DNA from: an uncultured Clostridia bacterium
GTDB lineage: Bacteria > Bacillota > Clostridia > Christensenellales > Borkfalkiaceae
Direction: 5' to 3'
Assembly: GCA_949290575.1 (NCBI GenBank)
Contig: CASESJ010000003.1
Coordinates: 62,001 to 126,000 of the forward strand
Length of the DNA: 64,000 nucleotides
Positions 23,952-53,094 of the stretch are shown in pieces. Position 1 is the first letter of the stretch. The number at the start of each line of letters is the position of its first letter. Below the pieces are notes generated by a model. The model made no database searches and was not told the origin of the DNA. It saw only the letters and a program-made list of their open reading frames with translations. The position numbers were made by a program, and so were the translations under genes.

Positions 23952-24494
23952 TCAGATTGCCTTAGCTCTGCACTCGCCGAGGGCGTTTCCGTCGAAATCT
24001 CTGAACGTAAAGACGCCGTCTTCATAGATGATATAACCGTGATGGCTGTTCTCCTTGGGCAGGGAGATTGAACCGGGGTTGAGGTGGAAAAATCCCTCGC
24101 CCTCGACGGCGTTGAGGGGAACGTGAGTGTGTCCCGTGAGATATACCTCGCCCTCTGAGAGGGGAGGGAGAGCTCTGTGTCCGTGCGAGAGGTGAATGTT
24201 CAGCCCGTCGGCAAACACTGTTGCATAGTCGGAAGATACGTTGAATGGCAGCACCATCTGGTCGACTTCGCTGTCGCAGTTGCCGCGCACGCAGATAATT
24301 TTATGCGCAACGGGCGTGAGCAGACTTACCACCTCTTTGGGGTCGTATCTTTCGGGCAGGGGATTTCTCGGTCCGTGATAGAGTATGTCGCCGAGCAGGA
24401 TAAGTCTGTCGGCATTTTCCTCATTAAATACCTTTACAAGCTTTTCGCACCAGTATGCAGAGCCGTGTATGTCCGAAGCTATAATAAATTTCAT
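23952..24494 (-). CDS. YfcE/MJ0936-type metallophosphoesterase
   Basis: This 180-residue phosphodiesterase has all calcineurin-like metal motifs: SDIHGS (Asp8, His10), GDILYHG, GNCDSEVD, SHGHR and TGHTHVP. Members hydrolyse model phosphodiesters and possibly cyclic nucleotides with Mn2+. I start it at the ATG at 24494, whose product begins MKFIIASDIHG; a longer frame adds 41 residues that overlap the upstream gene and match nothing. It overlaps the HAD phosphatase stop by four bases (ATGA), so the two are coupled. Confidence 0.9.
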   Translation of the reverse strand: MKFIIASDIHGSAYWCEKLVKVFNEENADRLILLGDILYHGPRNPLPERYDPKEVVSLLTPVAHKIICVRGNCDSEVDQMVLPFNVSSDYATVFADGLNIHLSHGHRALPPLSEGEVYLTGHTHVPLNAVEGEGFFHLNPGSISLPKENSHHGYIIYEDGVFTFRDFDGNALGECRAKAI

Positions 24495-25279
24495 TTCAGA
24501 AGTTCTCCTAATTTCTGTATAACGCCGTATTGTGCGTTGGAAGGTATCTCCTCGCCTATTTTCTGCTTGAGCAGGGGGAATGCATTCGCCGTGACGTATG
24601 CCTTTCCTGCGGCGCACAGCATCTCGTAATCGTTCATGTGGTCGCCGAAGGCTATGCTCTCGCTCCGCTCCGCGCCGAAGTAGGATAAAAGCGCGTCGAA
24701 CGCCCTGCCCTTGTTTGCGCAGGGTGCGGAGACGTCCAGCCAGTCATAGCCCGAAATCATCGTGCGCAACCCGTCAATCAGGGGCGGCAGAATGACGCCG
24801 CCGTGCTCGGCGCAGGGCTGGCTGTCCCAGACAGAAATCTTCATAACCTCACGGCTACGGGCAACCTCATAGAGGTTATCAACCCTTTTTACGGAGGAAT
24901 ACGAGCGCATAAGCGTCTGCACGAATTGCGGATAGTCGCTGCTGTAATACGCGCAGTCGGCGCACGAGAGCAGGGGGTACAGCCCTTGCTGCTTCTCTAT
25001 TATGCTCAGGGCATATTCCACGCCCTCGGCGGGAGTGGGGTCGGTAAAGACTATTCTGCCGTCCGCCCACGCAATGCCGCCGTTTTCGGCAATGATGGCA
25101 ATCTTGTCGAGGACGGGCGCAAACAGTTTTTTAAGGTTGGGCAGCTGTCTGCCGCTGGCAGGCGCAAAGACTATGCCGCGCTCGCGCAGCGCGGTTATAT
25201 AGGGAAAGGTTTCGGGCGGCATAATCTTGCTGGGCGGAAGCAGAGTTCCGTCCAGGTCGCTCGCGATAAATTTAATCAT
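24491..25279 (-). CDS. Cof-type HAD-IIB phosphatase
   Basis: This 262-residue haloacid dehalogenase-superfamily phosphatase has the nucleophile motif DLDGTLL (Asp8 and Asp10), the motif II region ASGRQ, the Lys of CANKGRAF and motif IV FGDHMNDYEML. Cof-like enzymes dephosphorylate sugar phosphates or flavin precursors in the cytoplasm; the substrate here cannot be told. The ATG lies where transcription from the promoter at 25286-25314 should begin, and no ribosome site is visible, so a leaderless message is possible alongside readthrough from the upstream gene. Confidence 0.9.
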   Translation of the reverse strand: MIKFIASDLDGTLLPPSKIMPPETFPYITALRERGIVFAPASGRQLPNLKKLFAPVLDKIAIIAENGGIAWADGRIVFTDPTPAEGVEYALSIIEKQQGLYPLLSCADCAYYSSDYPQFVQTLMRSYSSVKRVDNLYEVARSREVMKISVWDSQPCAEHGGVILPPLIDGLRTMISGYDWLDVSAPCANKGRAFDALLSYFGAERSESIAFGDHMNDYEMLCAAGKAYVTANAFPLLKQKIGEEIPSNAQYGVIQKLGELLK

Positions 25280-25285
25280 GCTTAA

Positions 25286-25314
25286 ATTTTATCATAACGC
25301 GCGCGTTTAGGCAA
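25286..25314 (-). promoter_or_regulatory. Internal promoter for HAD-phosphoesterase pair, leaderless geometry
   Basis: On the minus strand: TTGCCT, 17 bases, TAAAAT. Six bases separate the -10 from the ATG at 25279, so initiation about seven bases downstream would fall on the A of the start codon. Confidence 0.6.
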
Positions 25315-26696: not shown

Positions 26697-27713
26697 TTAT
26701 AAAATGAGCTTGAAGACGGTCATTTTGTTATCGTGCGACACGTCGGCAAGCTTTGCCGAAAGCACGGCTGCGGCGTCGAAGTCGGAGAGGATTTCCTTAT
26801 CCAGAACGTCGAGGTCTATCGCGCCGTGGAGTATCATATTGATTGCCGACTCGGTATAGCAGTAGCCGTCCGTCACGGTGAACACGCGTATATTGTGCCT
26901 GAAGAGGGGTATGGAATCGAGCTTGAAGCGCAGCGACGACATTCCCTCCAGAACGAGCGTCTTATCGCGCGCGAGCACGCGGGAGGCTATATCGGGATTG
27001 ATTTTCGAGCATGCAATATAAATTGCGGCGTCGCAATTTATGCCGCTCGTCGCTTCGGCTATGTTTGCTTCGAGGTCATCGTCGTACAGTATGGAATAGA
27101 ATACGCCCGACTTTCTCAGTCTCTCCAGCCCTTCGGGGTTGTCGTCGATGACGACGGGCACAAGCTTGTGGTACATTGCAACCTGTGCGAGAATGTACGC
27201 CATAGTGTTGCCGCCGACTATCGCCACTCTGCTGCCCGCAGACAGATTTAATTTATCGTAAATATTTTCTGCAAAGGCGACGTGTTCTATGCAGAGTGCC
27301 TGCAAATCGCTTATTTCGTCGGGCAGAACGGCAACTCTTCTGTAATCGCACACGACAAAATCGCGCAGAAAGCCGTCAAAATCGAGACCGGCAATCTGAA
27401 CGTGTTCGCATTCCTCAAAATCTCCGCGCTTGCAGTGCATGCACTTGCCGCAGGGACGGGTGCCTTCGATAAATACCCTCGCGCCCTTTTCTATGCCGTA
27501 AACCTTTTCGCCGCACTCGGTGACGATGCCCACGGCAAATCTTCCCACGGTCTTGGGATATGCGACGGGCAGTTCGCCCGCATAGCACAGGGCGTCGTAA
27601 TTGCTCGCCAGAACGTAGCTTACTTTAACTTTAACCTGGTCGCTAAGTATGTTAAGCTCGCTCTGCGGCTGCTTGACCAGCATCTTGGGACCTGCTAAAA
27701 TCCAATTATCCAT
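26697..27713 (-). CDS. MDR-superfamily dehydrogenase lacking catalytic-zinc ligands
   Basis: This 338-residue medium-chain dehydrogenase/reductase keeps the structural-zinc lobe (CGKCMHCKRGDFEEC, about 92-106) and a Rossmann fold with AIVGGNTMAYI. The catalytic-zinc site looks lost: the region normally CGSD reads LASNYDAL, and the usual GHE reads GRFAVG. The fold resembles ribitol-5-phosphate or polyol dehydrogenases such as TarJ, but the chemistry is uncertain. The ATG is preceded by a consensus-like promoter close enough for a leaderless transcript, and it heads the minus-strand operon with cardiolipin synthase. Confidence 0.8.
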   Translation of the reverse strand: MDNWILAGPKMLVKQPQSELNILSDQVKVKVSYVLASNYDALCYAGELPVAYPKTVGRFAVGIVTECGEKVYGIEKGARVFIEGTRPCGKCMHCKRGDFEECEHVQIAGLDFDGFLRDFVVCDYRRVAVLPDEISDLQALCIEHVAFAENIYDKLNLSAGSRVAIVGGNTMAYILAQVAMYHKLVPVVIDDNPEGLERLRKSGVFYSILYDDDLEANIAEATSGINCDAAIYIACSKINPDIASRVLARDKTLVLEGMSSLRFKLDSIPLFRHNIRVFTVTDGYCYTESAINMILHGAIDLDVLDKEILSDFDAAAVLSAKLADVSHDNKMTVFKLIL

Positions 27714-27721
27714 ATATGCAT

Positions 27722-27750
27722 ATTATACGCTAAGACGGCGCGTAAATCAA
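27722..27750 (-). promoter_or_regulatory. Promoter of the minus-strand dehydrogenase operon, leaderless geometry
   Basis: TTGATT, 17 bases, TATAAT on the minus strand. The -10 ends eight bases before the ATG at 27713, leaving a predicted leader of at most two bases. No Shine-Dalgarno site is visible. Confidence 0.7.
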
Positions 27751-27828: not shown

Positions 27829-27857
27829 TTGACTTGAATGAATTTTTTATATATAAT
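27829..27857 (+). promoter_or_regulatory. rpmE promoter
   Basis: TTGACT, 17 bases, TATAAT, about 38 bases upstream of rpmE, which also has a clear GAGGTGAG ribosome site. Confidence 0.85.
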
Positions 27858-27895
27858 AGTTTAGCATTACAAGAAATAACAGCGAGGTGAGATAA

Positions 27896-28181: not shown

Positions 28182-28187
28182 TATAAT
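28182..28187 (+). promoter_or_regulatory. Candidate -10 box next to the YqhQ-PrmC start
   Basis: A perfect TATAAT ends eight bases before the ATG at 28196, but the -35 region is poor (CGCATT at a 17-base spacing). If used, the leader would be one or two bases. No ribosome site is seen. Confidence 0.45.
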
Positions 28188-28195
28188 ATAGAGAA

Positions 28196-30025
28196 ATGTC
28201 AGATAAATCAAAAAAATGTAACCTGAATATTACGTCCGTGGGCGGTCAGGCCGTGCTCGAGGGCGTAATGATGCAGGGAAAAACTTCATATTGCACCGCC
28301 GTGCGCGACCAGGAGGGCACAATTCAGGTCGAAAGACTGCGCCTCAACTCGTCGCCCTCGGTAAAAAAGGCGGCTAAAATTCCCTTCGTCAGGGGCGTCG
28401 TCAACATGTTCTCGTCGCTCGTGCGCGGCTCTAAGGCGTTGATGCGCAGCGCGCAGGTCTACGGCGGAGACGAGGAGGAGCCGGGCAGAATTCAGCGTTG
28501 GTTCGCAGAAAAGTTCAAAAAGGACCTCACGCAGGTCATGTCGCTCTTTTCGGTGATACTTGGCGCATTGCTGGCAGTTGTGCTCTTCATATTCCTGCCC
28601 AACCTCGCCGTCAACGGACTTTCCGAACTCTTCCCCTCGTTTGCGGGAACGGTCTGGGAGTATGTCGTTTTAGGCGTGGTGAAACTTCTGATTTTCCTCG
28701 CATACCTCGGGCTCATATTGCTCCTTAAGGACATACGCCGTCTCTACGCCTATCACGGCGCGGAGCACAAGACGATAAACTGCTACGAAAAGGGTCTGCC
28801 GCTGACGCCCGAAAACGTCGCATCCTGCTCGCGCATTCACGACAGGTGCGGCACGTCCTTCCTGTTTATCGTGCTCATTGTGAATATCGTAATAATTTCC
28901 CTCGTATATTGGGCAATCGGTCTTCAGAACATCTCAAACGGCGCGCTTCGCTTCCTTGCGAGGCTGGGCGTCGAAATTGTCCTTCTGCCCGTAATCGCGG
29001 GCGTGGGATATGAAGTTTTAAAACTTCTCGCAAAGTTTCACGGACCAGTGTCAAAGGTGTTAAAATCGCCCGGAATGCTGCTTCAGAAGACGCTCACTAC
29101 GAGAGAGCCCGACCTTGAGATGATAGAGGTAGCCATCGCCGCGTTCAACTCCGCAATGGAGATGGACGCCGACCCCGAACTGCCCGAAACCCGCTTCGTG
29201 ACGGGCGGCGTGCTCACAGAGATGCTCAGGGAGACAAAAAAGCAGTTTGCCGAGGCGGAGGCGGACGAGAGCGACGCAGAGTGGATATATTCCATAGTTC
29301 TCGGAATGCCCCGCAGCGAGCTTGAAAACTCCTCGAGGGTAATCAAGCCGAGCGAAGCGAAAAAGATAGACGAAATAGTTAGAAAGCGTCTCACGGGCAG
29401 ACCTTTATGGTATGTCGTGGGCGATACGGAATTCTACGGCTGTACCATAAAGGTGGACGAGAGAGTGCTCATTCCCCGTCCCGAAACAGAGATTTTAGCC
29501 GAGCACGCCGTTCGCGCCGTCGAGGACGGCGACAAGGTGCTCGATTTGTGCACGGGCAGCGGCTGTCTGGCAATCGCCATAGCAAAGAACTGCAAGGCGA
29601 AGAGGGTGCAGGTCATCGCGGCGGACGTCTCGGACGCGGCTATAATGGTGGCGAGGGAAAACGCCAACCTCAACTCGGCGGATATCGAGTTCGTGCAGAG
29701 CGACATGTTCTCCAAGGTGCACGGCAGGTTCAACCTCATCGTGTGCAACCCGCCCTATATAAAGAGCGGCGAAATTGCCACTCTTCAGAAGGAAGTGCGC
29801 GACTACGAGCCGAGGGTAGCTCTCGACGGCGGCGAGGACGGACTTGATTTCTACCGCAGACTTGCAAAGGAAGTTTCACGCTATATCGCCAAGGGCGGCA
29901 TGCTCATTCTGGAGTGCGGCGAAGGTCAGGCGGAAGATATATTGAAGATGTTTGAAAAGCGCGATTACGCAATGGTCGTCAAGGACTATGCGGGCGTAGA
30001 CAGGATACTGAAAATAGCCTTCTGA
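28196..30025 (+). CDS. prmC: Fusion of YqhQ (DUF1385) membrane protein and PrmC release-factor methyltransferase
   Basis: Residues 1-300 match the YqhQ/DUF1385 family: the start VGGQAVLEGVMMQG, a core YHGAEHKTINCYE and four or so membrane helices. Residues about 310-609 are PrmC, which methylates the Gln of the GGQ motif in release factors: PRPETE, the SAM loop DLCTGSGCLA and the catalytic NPPY at 518-521. PrmC should therefore be tethered to the membrane by its YqhQ half. prfA, encoding its substrate RF1, follows 32 bases downstream. The frame is open through the junction, with no sign of frameshift. Confidence 0.92.
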   Translation: MSDKSKKCNLNITSVGGQAVLEGVMMQGKTSYCTAVRDQEGTIQVERLRLNSSPSVKKAAKIPFVRGVVNMFSSLVRGSKALMRSAQVYGGDEEEPGRIQRWFAEKFKKDLTQVMSLFSVILGALLAVVLFIFLPNLAVNGLSELFPSFAGTVWEYVVLGVVKLLIFLAYLGLILLLKDIRRLYAYHGAEHKTINCYEKGLPLTPENVASCSRIHDRCGTSFLFIVLIVNIVIISLVYWAIGLQNISNGALRFLARLGVEIVLLPVIAGVGYEVLKLLAKFHGPVSKVLKSPGMLLQKTLTTREPDLEMIEVAIAAFNSAMEMDADPELPETRFVTGGVLTEMLRETKKQFAEAEADESDAEWIYSIVLGMPRSELENSSRVIKPSEAKKIDEIVRKRLTGRPLWYVVGDTEFYGCTIKVDERVLIPRPETEILAEHAVRAVEDGDKVLDLCTGSGCLAIAIAKNCKAKRVQVIAADVSDAAIMVARENANLNSADIEFVQSDMFSKVHGRFNLIVCNPPYIKSGEIATLQKEVRDYEPRVALDGGEDGLDFYRRLAKEVSRYIAKGGMLILECGEGQAEDILKMFEKRDYAMVVKDYAGVDRILKIAF

Positions 30026-48913: not shown

Positions 48914-48923
48914 AATTGAAAAT

Positions 48924-48966
48924 CGCCGCGCCCACCTTTCAAAGGCGGGCGCGGCGGTCTTTTTTG
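48924..48966 (+). terminator. Terminator after ttcA
   Basis: CGCCGCGCCC pairs with GGGCGCGGCG within a longer imperfect stem; GTCTTTTTTTG follows. Confidence 0.9.
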
Positions 48967-49242
48967 CAAAAAATCAGGTCATTAAGTTGTTTTTTTTGCA
49001 GGAACTCGGTCACGCTGCAACTGTTTATGCAGTTTTAAGTTTTTGCAGCATTTCACAGGAATACCGTTTTCTGCGGCAACCAGACAGGCTTTAATTTTAC
49101 TGCGGCGTATTATCGGAACTTTCCCTTGCGGCTGCCTTTTCGAGCATAAAAGTCCCGATTTGGCTGCTTTGATATAGTTAAAACCTATAATCAATTATAG
49201 ATTGAATGTAATTCCGTCTTTTTCTTTTGTGCAGAAAAAGAC
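48967..49242. promoter_or_regulatory. Noncoding stretch upstream of metF with palindrome and hairpin
   Basis: No gene is visible. It contains a 16-base palindrome CTATAATCAATTATAG (49185-49200) and a hairpin GTCTTTTTC/GAAAAAGAC (49216-49242) that directly abuts the -35 box of metF. I searched by eye for a SAM riboswitch and saw none. Confidence 0.45.
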
Positions 49243-49271
49243 TTGTAACGCCTGCGCGCGTGTGTTAAAAT
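49243..49271 (+). promoter_or_regulatory. metF promoter, leaderless geometry
   Basis: TTGTAA, 17 bases, TAAAAT. The -10 ends six bases before the ATG at 49278, so transcription would begin at the start codon. Only a weak AGG lies between them. Confidence 0.65.
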
Positions 49272-49277
49272 AGGTAT

Positions 49278-50135
49278 ATGAAGATTACAGACATACTTGA
49301 CGGCAAGAGGGCGGTGCTGTCATTCGAGGTATTTCCGCCCAAGACGGGGGACGCCTTTGACGGCGTCATAGCGGCGGTGGACGAAATTGCTTCGCTTTCG
49401 CCCGATTTCATAAGCGTTACATACGGTGCGGGCGGCGGTACTTCTAACTATACCGTAAACATAGCCGAGCACGTCAAAAGCAGGTTCGGCGTGACGCCGC
49501 TTGCCCATCTTTCGTGCATATCGTCGGGACGGGCGGATGTGCTGGAAAAACTTAAAACGCTCAAGGATATGGGCGTGGAAAACATACTCGCTCTGCGCGG
49601 AGATTTGCCCGCGGGCTTTACGGGCGGGCTGGACTACAGCTACGCATATCAGCTCGTCGAAGAGATATCCGCCTTCGGCGGTTTCTGCATAGGCGGAGCG
49701 TGCTATCCCGAAGGTCACCCCGAAAGCAGCACTCTGTTTGCCGATATCGAACACCTCAAAATCAAGGTGGACGCGGGCTGTTCTTTTCTGACCACGCAGA
49801 TGTTTTTCGACAACGACGCGTTCTATTCTTTCATGTCGAAAGTGCGCGACGCGGGCATATATGTGCCCGTCATTGCGGGAATAATGCCCGTTACAAACGC
49901 AAAACAGATAAAGAGGATGATGTCCCTTTCGGGCGGGTCTCTGCCTACGCGTTTCAGGCGCATAATAGACAGGTTCGGCGACAACCCCGACGCAATGGCG
50001 CAGGCGGGCATAGCTTACGCCACCGAGCAGATTATAGATTTATACGCCAACGGCGTAAAGGCGGTACACGTCTACTCTATGAACAAGCCCAAAGTCGCCG
50101 CTGCGATAAAGTCAAACCTTTCGCACATAATATGA
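49278..50135 (+). CDS. metF: Methylenetetrahydrofolate reductase
   Basis: MetF (285 residues, FAD-dependent TIM barrel) reduces 5,10-methylene-THF to 5-methyl-THF, the methyl donor for MetH. Segments typical of the family are LSFEVFPPKTGD, ISVTYGAGGG, HLSCIS, LALRGDLP and TTQMFFDND. Its stop overlaps the next start (ATGA), and MetH is third in the unit, so methyl-THF production and use are encoded together. Confidence 0.96.
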   Translation: MKITDILDGKRAVLSFEVFPPKTGDAFDGVIAAVDEIASLSPDFISVTYGAGGGTSNYTVNIAEHVKSRFGVTPLAHLSCISSGRADVLEKLKTLKDMGVENILALRGDLPAGFTGGLDYSYAYQLVEEISAFGGFCIGGACYPEGHPESSTLFADIEHLKIKVDAGCSFLTTQMFFDNDAFYSFMSKVRDAGIYVPVIAGIMPVTNAKQIKRMMSLSGGSLPTRFRRIIDRFGDNPDAMAQAGIAYATEQIIDLYANGVKAVHVYSMNKPKVAAAIKSNLSHII

Positions 50136-50716
50136 ACATACTGACGGGAAGATTGAACCAAATAGACAGGCGCGAAGCTTTATACTACCTCGGCTGTGGC
50201 GCGAAAGCCGTTCAGCCTGAAGAGGTGCAGGCTCTTATGGACGAGTGCGAGCAGGAGGTGCTGAAAGTTCAGGACCTGAAGGCGGTATATAAAATTTACG
50301 ACATAAGGTCTGACGACGAGCTCGACCTCGGCTTTGCAAAGACGGACAGCCGCGACCTTGAAAAGTATCTTTCAGGCTGTAACAAAATCGCGCTGTTCGC
50401 CGCCACGGCGGGTGCGGGCATCGACAGACTGATTGCGCGCTATTCGCGCATATCCCCTGCGCGCGCGGCTGCGGTGCAGGCGTTGGGCGCGGCACTCGTC
50501 GAGGGCTGGTGCGACGAGGTTCATTCGGGCATAATTGCGTCCTTCGGCGGCAAAAAAGCGCGCTTTTCGTGCGGTTTCGGCGATTTGCCGCTGTCCATGC
50601 AGAGGGATATCTTCTGCGCGCTCGACGTCACAAAGTCGATAGGCGTGACGCTTTCGGACAACTTTTTTATGGTGCCGACCAAATCGGTGACGGCAATAGT
50701 GGGAATACCTTTATGA
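50132..50716 (+). CDS. Stand-alone methionine synthase activation-domain protein
   Basis: This 194-residue protein resembles the C-terminal activation (AdoMet-binding) domain of cobalamin-dependent methionine synthase: an N-terminal RREALYYLGCGAK, a central GAALVEGWCDE and CGFGDLPLSMQRDIF, and a C-terminal VTLSDNFFMVPTKSVTAIVG. MetH downstream lacks this domain, so the protein probably supplies reductive reactivation of cob(II)alamin in trans. It overlaps metF and metH by four bases each (ATGA both times), implying strict co-expression. Confidence 0.88.
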   Translation: MNILTGRLNQIDRREALYYLGCGAKAVQPEEVQALMDECEQEVLKVQDLKAVYKIYDIRSDDELDLGFAKTDSRDLEKYLSGCNKIALFAATAGAGIDRLIARYSRISPARAAAVQALGAALVEGWCDEVHSGIIASFGGKKARFSCGFGDLPLSMQRDIFCALDVTKSIGVTLSDNFFMVPTKSVTAIVGIPL

Positions 50717-53094
50717 AATTCAGACAAAAACTCAGAAATTCCGTAATAGTTCTCGACGGCGCGATGGGCACGCAGCTGCAAAGCCTCGGTCTGCCCCTCG
50801 GCACGCTGCCCGAAAGCTGGAATTTAACCCGTCCCGAAGAGGTTAAAAAGGTACATCTTTCATACCTCGGGGCAGGTGCGGACGTAATCTATGCAAACAC
50901 CTTCGGCGCGAACGTCTATAAATTCGGCGAGCAGACCGCCGAGGTGGTAAAAGCGGGCGTAAAATGCGCTCTTTCGGCGGCGAAGGAGTACAAAGACAGG
51001 TTTGTCGCGCTCGATATAGGCTCGCTTGGCAAGCTTTTGAAACCTCTCGGTCCGTTGCCCTTCGAGGACGCCGTTTCAGCCTTCAAGGTTACGGTAAAAG
51101 CGGGCGCGGAGGCGGGCGCAGACCTCATCGTCATAGAGACGATGAACGACATATACGAGCTCAAAGCGGCTGTCATTGCGGCAAAGGAAGTGTGCTCTCT
51201 GCCGATAATCGCAACGCTCGTGTTCGGCGCGGACGGCAAGACTATGACGGGCACTTCGCCCGAGGCGGCTGTCGCCGTCTGCGAGGGGCTGGGCGTGGAC
51301 GCGCTCGGACTGAATTGTTCGCTCGCTCCCGCGGAGATGACGGAGGTGGTTGAAAGATTTTTAAAAGTCAGCTCTCTGCCCGTCGTCGTAAAGCCCAATG
51401 CGGGACTTCCGACCGAGGTCGGAGGCAAGACGGTCTACTCGCTCGGAGCGGAGCAGTTTGCCTCGGATATGAAAAAGCTCGTCGCGCTCGGCGCGAGGGT
51501 GGTTGGCGGCTGCTGCGGCACAACTCCCGAGTATATAAAGTTGCTTTATGACGGGGTTAAAGACGCAGTCCCTGCGCCCGTAAAGAAAAAAAATCTCACG
51601 GTGGTAAGTTCGTACACTCAGGCGCGTTACTTCGGCAATATCCCCGTGCTAATCGGCGAAAGAATAAACCCCACGGGCAAAAAACGCTTAAAGGAAGCTC
51701 TTCGCTCGGGCGATATGGGATATATACTCAACGAGGCGGTCACTCAGACCGATTGCGGGGCACATATCCTCGATGTAAACGTCGGACTGCCCGAAATCGA
51801 CGAGCCCGGAATGCTTTCTCTGGCGGTGAGCGAGATACAGGCTGTGACCGATTTGCCCCTGCAGATAGACACCTCCGACCCCGTTGCGATGGAGAGGGCG
51901 ATGAGGCTGTACAACGGAAAGCCGCTCGTCAATTCGGTAAACGGCAAGCGCGAGGTGATGGAAAAAATTTTCCCCCTCGTCAGAAAATACGGCGGCGCGG
52001 TCATCGCGCTCACGCTGGACGAAGACGGCGTGCCCCCGACAGCCGAGGGCAGAATTGAGATTGCAAAAAAGATTATCGCTGAGGCGAAGGCATACGGCAT
52101 AGGCAAAAACGAGCTCATTTTCGATACCCTCGCAATGGCGGTTTCAGCCGACTGCAATGCGGCGAACGCCGCACTCGACGCGCTCGGCTATATAAGGCAC
52201 AAGCTGGGCTGCAACACCTCGCTGGGCGTTTCCAACATATCGTTCGGACTGCCCAAGAGGGACTTTATAAATTCCGCATTCTTTGCAATGGCTCTCTCGC
52301 GCGGACTTTCGGCGGCTATAATAAATCCCTCGTCGCAGGAGATGATTAAAACCTACAAAAGTTTTCTCGCGCTGTCGGGATTGGACGAAAACTGCATGGG
52401 ATATATCGACTATGCCTCGTCAGTCAGCGCGGGCGAGATAGTGGTCGGCGACAAAAAGACTGTCAATGCGGGCGAAGTCGGGCTTAAGGGCGCGATAGTC
52501 AAAGGGCTCAAAGCGCGCGCTAAAGAGGACGCTGCTCAGCTTCTCAAGGACAGAGCCCCTTTAGATGTCATAAACGAATATATCATTCCTGCGCTCAACG
52601 AGGTGGGCGACGGGTTCGAAAAAAAGACGCTCTTTCTGCCGCAGCTTCTGATGAGCGCGGAGGCGGCTTCGGCGGCGTTCGAGGTGATTAAGAGCAAATT
52701 CTCGGGCGGCGCGCAGTCCAAAAAACTTAAAATAGTTGTCGCCACGGTCAAGGGCGACATTCACGACATAGGCAAAAATATTGTCAGAACGCTGCTCATA
52801 AACTACGGGTTCACGGTTTACGACCTCGGTCGCGACGTCGACCCTCAGGCGGTTGCCGACGCGGTAAAGGAGCACGGCGCGCAGCTGTGCGGACTGTCCG
52901 CGCTGATGACCACTACCGTGCGCTCTATGGCGGAGACGATAGAACTTCTGCGTGCGCAGTGTCCGGATGTAAAGATTGCCGCCGGCGGCGCGGTCATGAA
53001 TGAGGAATACGCCGCGGCTATAGGCGCGGACAGGTATTGCGCCGACGCAATGGCTACGGTCAGATATGCCGAGGAGATTGAAAGTTCTCTGTGA
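50713..53094 (+). CDS. metH: Cobalamin-dependent methionine synthase lacking the activation domain
   Basis: MetH (793 residues) transfers a methyl group from methyl-THF to homocysteine. The homocysteine domain starts VLDGAMGTQLQSLG and has zinc ligands Cys202 (LNCSL), Cys267 and Cys268 (GGCCGT). The folate domain contains GERINPTGKK, a helical cap follows, and the B12 domain carries Asp682-x-His684-x-x-Gly687 (GDIHDIGKN). The protein ends after the B12 domain; E. coli MetH is about 1200 residues. The start is the ATG at 50713, overlapping the activation-protein stop. Confidence 0.96.
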   Translation: MKFRQKLRNSVIVLDGAMGTQLQSLGLPLGTLPESWNLTRPEEVKKVHLSYLGAGADVIYANTFGANVYKFGEQTAEVVKAGVKCALSAAKEYKDRFVALDIGSLGKLLKPLGPLPFEDAVSAFKVTVKAGAEAGADLIVIETMNDIYELKAAVIAAKEVCSLPIIATLVFGADGKTMTGTSPEAAVAVCEGLGVDALGLNCSLAPAEMTEVVERFLKVSSLPVVVKPNAGLPTEVGGKTVYSLGAEQFASDMKKLVALGARVVGGCCGTTPEYIKLLYDGVKDAVPAPVKKKNLTVVSSYTQARYFGNIPVLIGERINPTGKKRLKEALRSGDMGYILNEAVTQTDCGAHILDVNVGLPEIDEPGMLSLAVSEIQAVTDLPLQIDTSDPVAMERAMRLYNGKPLVNSVNGKREVMEKIFPLVRKYGGAVIALTLDEDGVPPTAEGRIEIAKKIIAEAKAYGIGKNELIFDTLAMAVSADCNAANAALDALGYIRHKLGCNTSLGVSNISFGLPKRDFINSAFFAMALSRGLSAAIINPSSQEMIKTYKSFLALSGLDENCMGYIDYASSVSAGEIVVGDKKTVNAGEVGLKGAIVKGLKARAKEDAAQLLKDRAPLDVINEYIIPALNEVGDGFEKKTLFLPQLLMSAEAASAAFEVIKSKFSGGAQSKKLKIVVATVKGDIHDIGKNIVRTLLINYGFTVYDLGRDVDPQAVADAVKEHGAQLCGLSALMTTTVRSMAETIELLRAQCPDVKIAAGGAVMNEEYAAAIGADRYCADAMATVRYAEEIESSL

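Follow-up and report, generated by a model that had tools for sequence, protein, structure and literature searches.

Our analysis points, with a probability of about 0.9, to a class of sigma-70-type promoters in an uncultured Clostridia lineage that start the mRNA on the A of the ATG start codon or 1–5 bases before it, producing mRNAs that are leaderless or nearly so. Judged from the DNA sequence, a sizeable minority of housekeeping genes probably have an mRNA that begins at the start codon and carries no ribosome-binding site. The genome holding the window, that is, the whole 64-kb stretch of DNA analyzed here, measures 1.54 Mb and is 95.9% complete. Its relatives in public genomes are uncultured Clostridia or Clostridiales, the farthest being Candidatus Faecaligallichristensenella (Clostridia incertae sedis), and 16S rRNA matches in the genome span the first 800 model positions only. 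Counts within the genome were made in a 464-kb sample (GC content, 49%) consisting of the window and a further 400 kb of the genome. Our own simple codon-score script, used in place of a published caller, called 353 genes in this sample and left some stretches of the window uncalled, e.g., about 16.6–17.9 kb and beyond 61.8 kb. All in-frame ATGs lying no more than 120 bases upstream or 60 bases downstream of each coding-score start were taken as candidate starts (534 in total).

The earlier note on this DNA had described, at the genes for a HAD hydrolase, a dehydrogenase, and MetF, -35 and -10 boxes that are separated by 17 bases and end six to eight bases before the ATG, with no Shine–Dalgarno (SD) site between. 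Direct reading bore this out (6, 8, and 6 bases, respectively), and the promoter scan agreed, except for the metF promoter, which lies outside the range of the scan and was found by reading. Reading together with an SD scan found no SD site 4–12 bases before these three starts. The note's perfect TATAAT at the YqhQ-PrmC gene is also present, eight bases before the ATG. That gene is, however, a weak member of the class: its upstream region has no -35 box (best match 1/6) and no TG element, the base before the ATG is A, and the geometry was kept only in one relative (L004), which is 93% identical. Direct reading saw no SD-like stretch between the -10 box and the ATG in any of the four genes (Table 1). 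The short -10-to-ATG geometry was found in 4 of the 50 called genes of the window, and in 31 of the 50 an SD match of at least 4 accompanied one or more candidate starts, SD fractions from our caller being probably too low because its start positions are approximate. The rpmE gene, divergent from the dehydrogenase gene, provides a leadered contrast, and its SD site could be recognized visually in the corresponding rows from relatives.

Table 1. Promoters and genes of the predicted leaderless class, with the leadered rpmE promoter for contrast (window coordinates)
Feature	Position	Strand	Basis	Remarks
-35 box TTGCCT, HAD gene	25309..25314	-	direct reading and promoter scan	17 bases to the -10 box
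-10 box TAAAAT (TG-extended), HAD gene	25286..25291	-		6 bases to ATG; C at -1
HAD-IIB hydrolase gene (Hydrolase_3)	24491..25279	-	family scans	predicted leaderless start 25279
-35 box TTGATT, dehydrogenase gene	27745..27750	-	direct reading and promoter scan	17 bases to the -10 box
-10 box TATAAT, dehydrogenase gene	27722..27727	-		8 bases to ATG; T at -1
Zn-type medium-chain alcohol dehydrogenase-like gene (ADH_N)	26697..27713	-	family scans	predicted leaderless; ATG at 27713
-35 box TTGTAA, metF	49243..49248	+	direct reading	17 bases to the -10 box
-10 box TAAAAT (TG-extended), metF	49266..49271	+		6 bases to ATG; T at -1
metF (methylenetetrahydrofolate reductase)	49278..50135	+	family scans	predicted leaderless; ATG at 49278
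TATAAT before YqhQ-PrmC ATG	28182..28187	+		weak candidate; 8 bases to ATG; A at -1
YqhQ (DUF1385)-PrmC fusion gene	28196..30025	+	family scans	
rpmE leadered promoter TTGACT-17-TATAAT	27829..27857	+	reading and promoter scan	contrast
rpmE SD site GAGGTGA	27884..27890	+	reading and SD scan	contrast; ATG 27896

Two of these loci show further features. YqhQ (DUF1385) and PrmC are fused into a 609-aa protein (28196–30025) encoded directly upstream of prfA, the product of which is methylated by PrmC, and near full-length matches to the fusion were found in 16 relatives. The metF gene is the first of a run that continues with a MetH activation-domain gene (50132) and metH (50713); within 50132–53094, a 194-aa protein encoded between metF and metH (Met_synt_B12, weak match) seems to hold the MetH reactivation domain, which would then not belong to MetH itself. 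The 364-base spacer 5' of metF (48914–49277) has a terminator-like hairpin at its start and contains no called gene. Scans for Rfam families and tRNAs gave no matches anywhere in the window, this spacer included, so that the long region upstream of metF has no known riboswitch to explain it.

The genome-wide distance peak that would be expected if the window genes represent a class, placed by the earlier note at 6–8 bases, was found in the 464-kb sample. Exact TATAAT stood 6, 7, and 8 bases before candidate ATGs 10, 4, and 4 times, respectively, and never at 3, 4, or 5 bases. These 18 of 534 candidates compare with a mean of 1.36 and a maximum of 5 in 200 rounds of dinucleotide shuffling of the 40 upstream bases. 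With at most one mismatch, 27 of 534 candidates matched at 6–8 bases (shuffle mean 9.0, maximum 19), corresponding to 26 of 334 genes (7.8%), against a single match at 3–5 bases. With the first T of the -10-like box about 12 bp before the start codon, this genome-wide peak has the position known from leaderless genes. A combined -35/TG/-10 score gave two distance modes, at 6–8 and at about 30–38 bases: 8 promoter matches fell at 0–5 bases, 21 at 6–8 (13 of them at 6), 11 at 9–17, and 71 at 18–45, and internal ATGs predict 0.17 matches per distance. Approximately a fifth of the recognizable promoter matches 6–45 bases from a candidate start (21/103) are therefore at the short distance. At distance 0, 13 one-mismatch -10 matches were also present. 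Such hexamers touching the start codon were set aside, as several stand behind SD sites and look like AT-rich SD spacers; spacers that resemble promoters in this way (G000:C1 and C2) could mislead simple scans.

The 27 short-distance matches also resemble promoters outside the -10 box. A -35 box matching at least 4/6 at a spacing of 16–18 was present in 19 of them, compared with 13% of 507 control ATGs; 9 carried the TG that extends a -10 box, compared with 4.7% of controls; and a pyrimidine preceded the ATG in 23, compared with 55% of controls. A Pfam domain was found in 17 of the 20 proteins scanned from candidates outside the window, the scan of the 27 leaving aside a 2066-aa protein, a 96-aa protein, and the longer of one gene's two starts. 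Pfam-named candidates include LspA, GcpE, MnmA, TilS, Ham1, alanine racemase, BioY, an M24 peptidase, and a family-28 glycosyltransferase. Their functions are mostly housekeeping, and one candidate is an AraC-type regulator.

The base before the ATG bears on the transcription start itself. The sequence favored by RNA polymerase at its start point is a pyrimidine at -1 followed by a purine at +1; a start on the A of the ATG therefore predicts a pyrimidine immediately before the codon, and we know of no reason why translation should require one there. Among the whole-genome matches listed in the family for the TG-extended pattern TGNTATAAT-N6-ATG, a pyrimidine preceded the ATG in 118 of 120. The genome under study contributed T or C in 14/14; among the matches listed, five genus relatives contributed 58/60 and three sister-genus genomes 46/46. 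The figure was 18/28 in family f139, which shows no enrichment of the pattern. These counts omit two listed matches of one genome (G409). The base-level evidence thus suggests that the start codon is ATG and that transcription would start on its A.

Comparison of orthologs indicated that the geometry is conserved, to a different extent at each gene. For the dehydrogenase, 30 loci of 38 matching genomes were compared. All 24 genus rows, our genome included, have TATAAT 6–16 bases from the ATG, 22 of them within 12 bases, and all 15 loci of a second collection, some from the same genomes, agreed by eye. The spacing drifts to 10–16 bases in many relatives, which would give leaders of several bases, and one relative (L079) combines a short-distance promoter with GAGGT. 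All six more distant homologs from other families are SD-led, and these share 26–31% identity and may be paralogs. The HAD geometry, judged by eye, was kept in 5/6 relatives, being lost in L005, and in 1/5 further rows; metF has a short-distance promoter in 6/25 homolog rows.

Both arrangements were found at mnmA, a gene outside the window that was picked from the genome's list of leaderless candidates and compared in 30 loci of 41 matching genomes. In 12 loci the promoter lies at most 12 bases from the ATG, and none of these has an SD site (0/12). In 11 loci it lies at 19–47 bases, and all have one (11/11); 10 of these 11 distant promoters are again a TG-extended TATAAT with a 4/6 -35 box. 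Among the remaining loci, six gave no recognized promoter and one gave a promoter scoring under the limit. In one locus (L206), the script used the first of two ATGs, the second of which sits 6 bases from the -10 box. When dehydrogenase, metF, and mnmA promoters with a score of at least 9 were pooled, an SD site accompanied 1 of 40 lying within 12 bases of the ATG and 21 of 25 lying farther away. The latter figure carries the weight, because a promoter so near the ATG offers hardly any space for an SD site and the former is partly built in. Fitting the leaderless label to the mnmA tree takes five changes, of which well-supported branches force one, suggesting that the start mode of this gene has switched repeatedly.

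The pattern extends beyond the genus. Exact TATAAT at 6–8 bases occurred 7 times in five genus relatives (1.1 expected), 8 times in fifteen relative loci (0.7 expected), and 6 times in five other genomes of the order (1.2 expected). In contrast, four genomes of the class gave 1 (1.4 expected) and four of the phylum gave 0 (0.6 expected). One-mismatch -10 counts rose only moderately above chance in the genus sample (17; shuffle mean 7.6, maximum 15) and were near the shuffle mean in the order (10 vs 7.9), class (8 vs 8.4), and phylum (6 vs 5.0), for which reason exact matches alone were used in these samples. In raw whole-genome counts, TATAATN{6,8}ATG modestly exceeded TATAATN{3,5}ATG (130 vs 82). 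Applied to 149 phylum and 157 class genomes, such raw counts were swamped by chance matches, presumably intragenic, and were replaced by the TG-extended pattern, with 6 bases or, as a control in the same reading phase, 3 bases before the ATG, and by a split into pyrimidine and purine at -1.

With this pattern, 180 genomes of the order were compared. Our genome has 14 matches at 6 bases against 5 in the control. Sums were made for six families (74/180 genomes) chosen after the tables had been seen. The excess was strong in our own family (166 vs 24, 13 genomes) and in families f141 (186 vs 16, 13 genomes), f163 (168 vs 17, 12 genomes), and f80 (122 vs 13, 12 genomes), and no excess was found in f139 (28 vs 30, 13 genomes) or f157 (21 vs 21, 11 genomes). 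These sums indicate that the signal spans much of the order and is absent from some families. Among 299 phylum genomes, ours had the highest pyrimidine count as read from the table (14, and 0 with a purine). The next, G612 (11 pyrimidine vs 5 purine) and G041 (10 vs 3), show that weaker signals exist elsewhere in the phylum, and they are possible further leaderless lineages.

The leaderless reading put forward in the earlier note is supported by the distance peak, the -35 box or TG element, the initiator on the A of the ATG, and the conservation in orthologs, all of which were found; from these we infer where transcription starts and that the ribosome begins on a 5'-terminal AUG. In the proposed mechanism, RNA polymerase would recognize a -35 box or a TG-extended -10 box, and transcription would begin 7–9 bases past the -10, at a pyrimidine/A step coinciding with the ATG. 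The ribosome would then initiate on the 5'-terminal AUG without SD pairing; ribosome loading of this kind has been shown elsewhere for leaderless mRNAs, in work cited by the Streptococcus agalactiae study discussed below. The remaining genes would use SD-led leaders, both modes coexisting in the genome. Within the family and across much of the order, the leaderless class would be inherited; a single gene may change mode when its -10-to-ATG spacer lengthens and an SD site appears.

Three other explanations deserve consideration. AT-rich upstream DNA might happen to hold TATAAT near an ATG, and single hexamer matches near ATGs are indeed common, as the matches at distance 0 demonstrate. Chance would not, however, limit the peak to 6–8 bases with no exact match at 3–5, enrich the -35 box, the TG, and the pyrimidine at -1 together, or conserve the geometry at mnmA and the dehydrogenase gene. 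We consider it very improbable, and refuted as an explanation of the whole class; at a single gene, such as YqhQ-PrmC, a fortuitous match is possible. Misplaced start codons, with true SD-led starts downstream, are the least probable of the explanations considered. Weak SD matches do precede starts 30 bases downstream in the dehydrogenase (AGGT) and YqhQ (GAGG) genes. Nevertheless, protein alignments in relatives reach residue 1 at the ATGs in question, four of the six distant SD-led dehydrogenase homologs (L092, L093, L096, and L097) begin at the aligned position, and no other start with an SD site was found at the HAD gene or metF.

The boxes might also be secondary promoters, the main transcript being led from upstream and translated without an SD site through coupling, S1, or an unstructured start. 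At the HAD gene, read-through from cls and translational coupling are possible, because the start lies only 27 bases past the end of this same-strand gene, and a hidden upstream promoter is possible at individual genes. In the excerpts of the Clostridium phytofermentans study (PMC5171806), potentially leaderless starts generally had another start site upstream, and the ribosome-binding site was retained. In the present genome, unlike in C. phytofermentans, the -10 box itself occupies the SD position, and orthologs with longer spacers do have SD sites. Moreover, the dehydrogenase and metF genes need no read-through, since the former is divergent from rpmE and the latter follows its 364-base spacer. 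Secondary promoters are thus an improbable account, and we favor transcription starting at the ATG.

How this class evolved is less certain. The odds lean slightly towards a reading in which the leaderless class is a vertically inherited trait of the order, its promoters are under added selection for one exact start, and the two modes are interchangeable at single housekeeping genes, mnmA for example. Such selection would be reflected in the T at -1 in 69/74 genus matches, compared with 55% T (and 22% C) at mapped starts in excerpts of a Sporomusa study (PMC12456013). Homologous promoters that toggle by small changes of the spacer would, in the same reading, make both modes interchangeable in evolution.

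The mechanism is known, and the clade is where it is unexpected; leaderless genes are already known in streptococci and mycoplasmas. The earlier note's remark that leaderless mRNAs are uncommon in Bacillota was borne out in part: they are reported to be rare in clostridia. According to excerpts of Zheng et al. 2011 (PMC3160421), leaderless genes were predicted in 56/209 Firmicutes genomes, at an average of 4.2% and up to 16.6%, concentrated in Lactobacillales and Mycoplasma, and a TG before the -10 was noted in low-GC Firmicutes. Our genes resemble the TA-led genes of that survey, which have TANNNT about 12 bp upstream, no SD site, and SD-led neighbors in the same genome. They differ in belonging to uncultured Clostridia and in the near-fixed T at -1. 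In Streptococcus agalactiae, likewise of the Bacillota, 78 of 891 mapped starts were leaderless (8%), all with AUG and 90% at A, in the part of the report available (PMC4448216); that species is cultured and its starts are mapped, whereas ours are predictions in an uncultured lineage of 49% GC. Clostridia are the nearest mapped organisms by name, and excerpts report few leaderless genes in them: 4% of intergenic sense start sites in C. phytofermentans (PMC5171806), 15 genes in C. difficile (PMC7438776), 7 mRNAs in Sporomusa (PMC12456013), and about 2–3% in solventogenic clostridia (PMC9045289). In our sample, about a fifth of the recognizable promoter matches 6–45 bases from a candidate start lie at the predicted leaderless distance of 6–8 bases. 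Our literature search found no report on leaderless genes in this lineage, and literature joining “leaderless” and “Christensenella” was unrelated to the question; the survey of Lomsadze et al. 2018, which is cited as covering thousands of genomes, could contain related groups.

If confirmed, our results would extend substantial leaderless expression to a clade of gut Clostridia, although little of it has been reported in the mapped members of this class. In these genomes, starts may then be misplaced by gene finders that rely on SD sites. The mnmA and dehydrogenase homologs would provide natural pairs for studying the switch between leaderless and SD-led expression with the promoter nearly constant.
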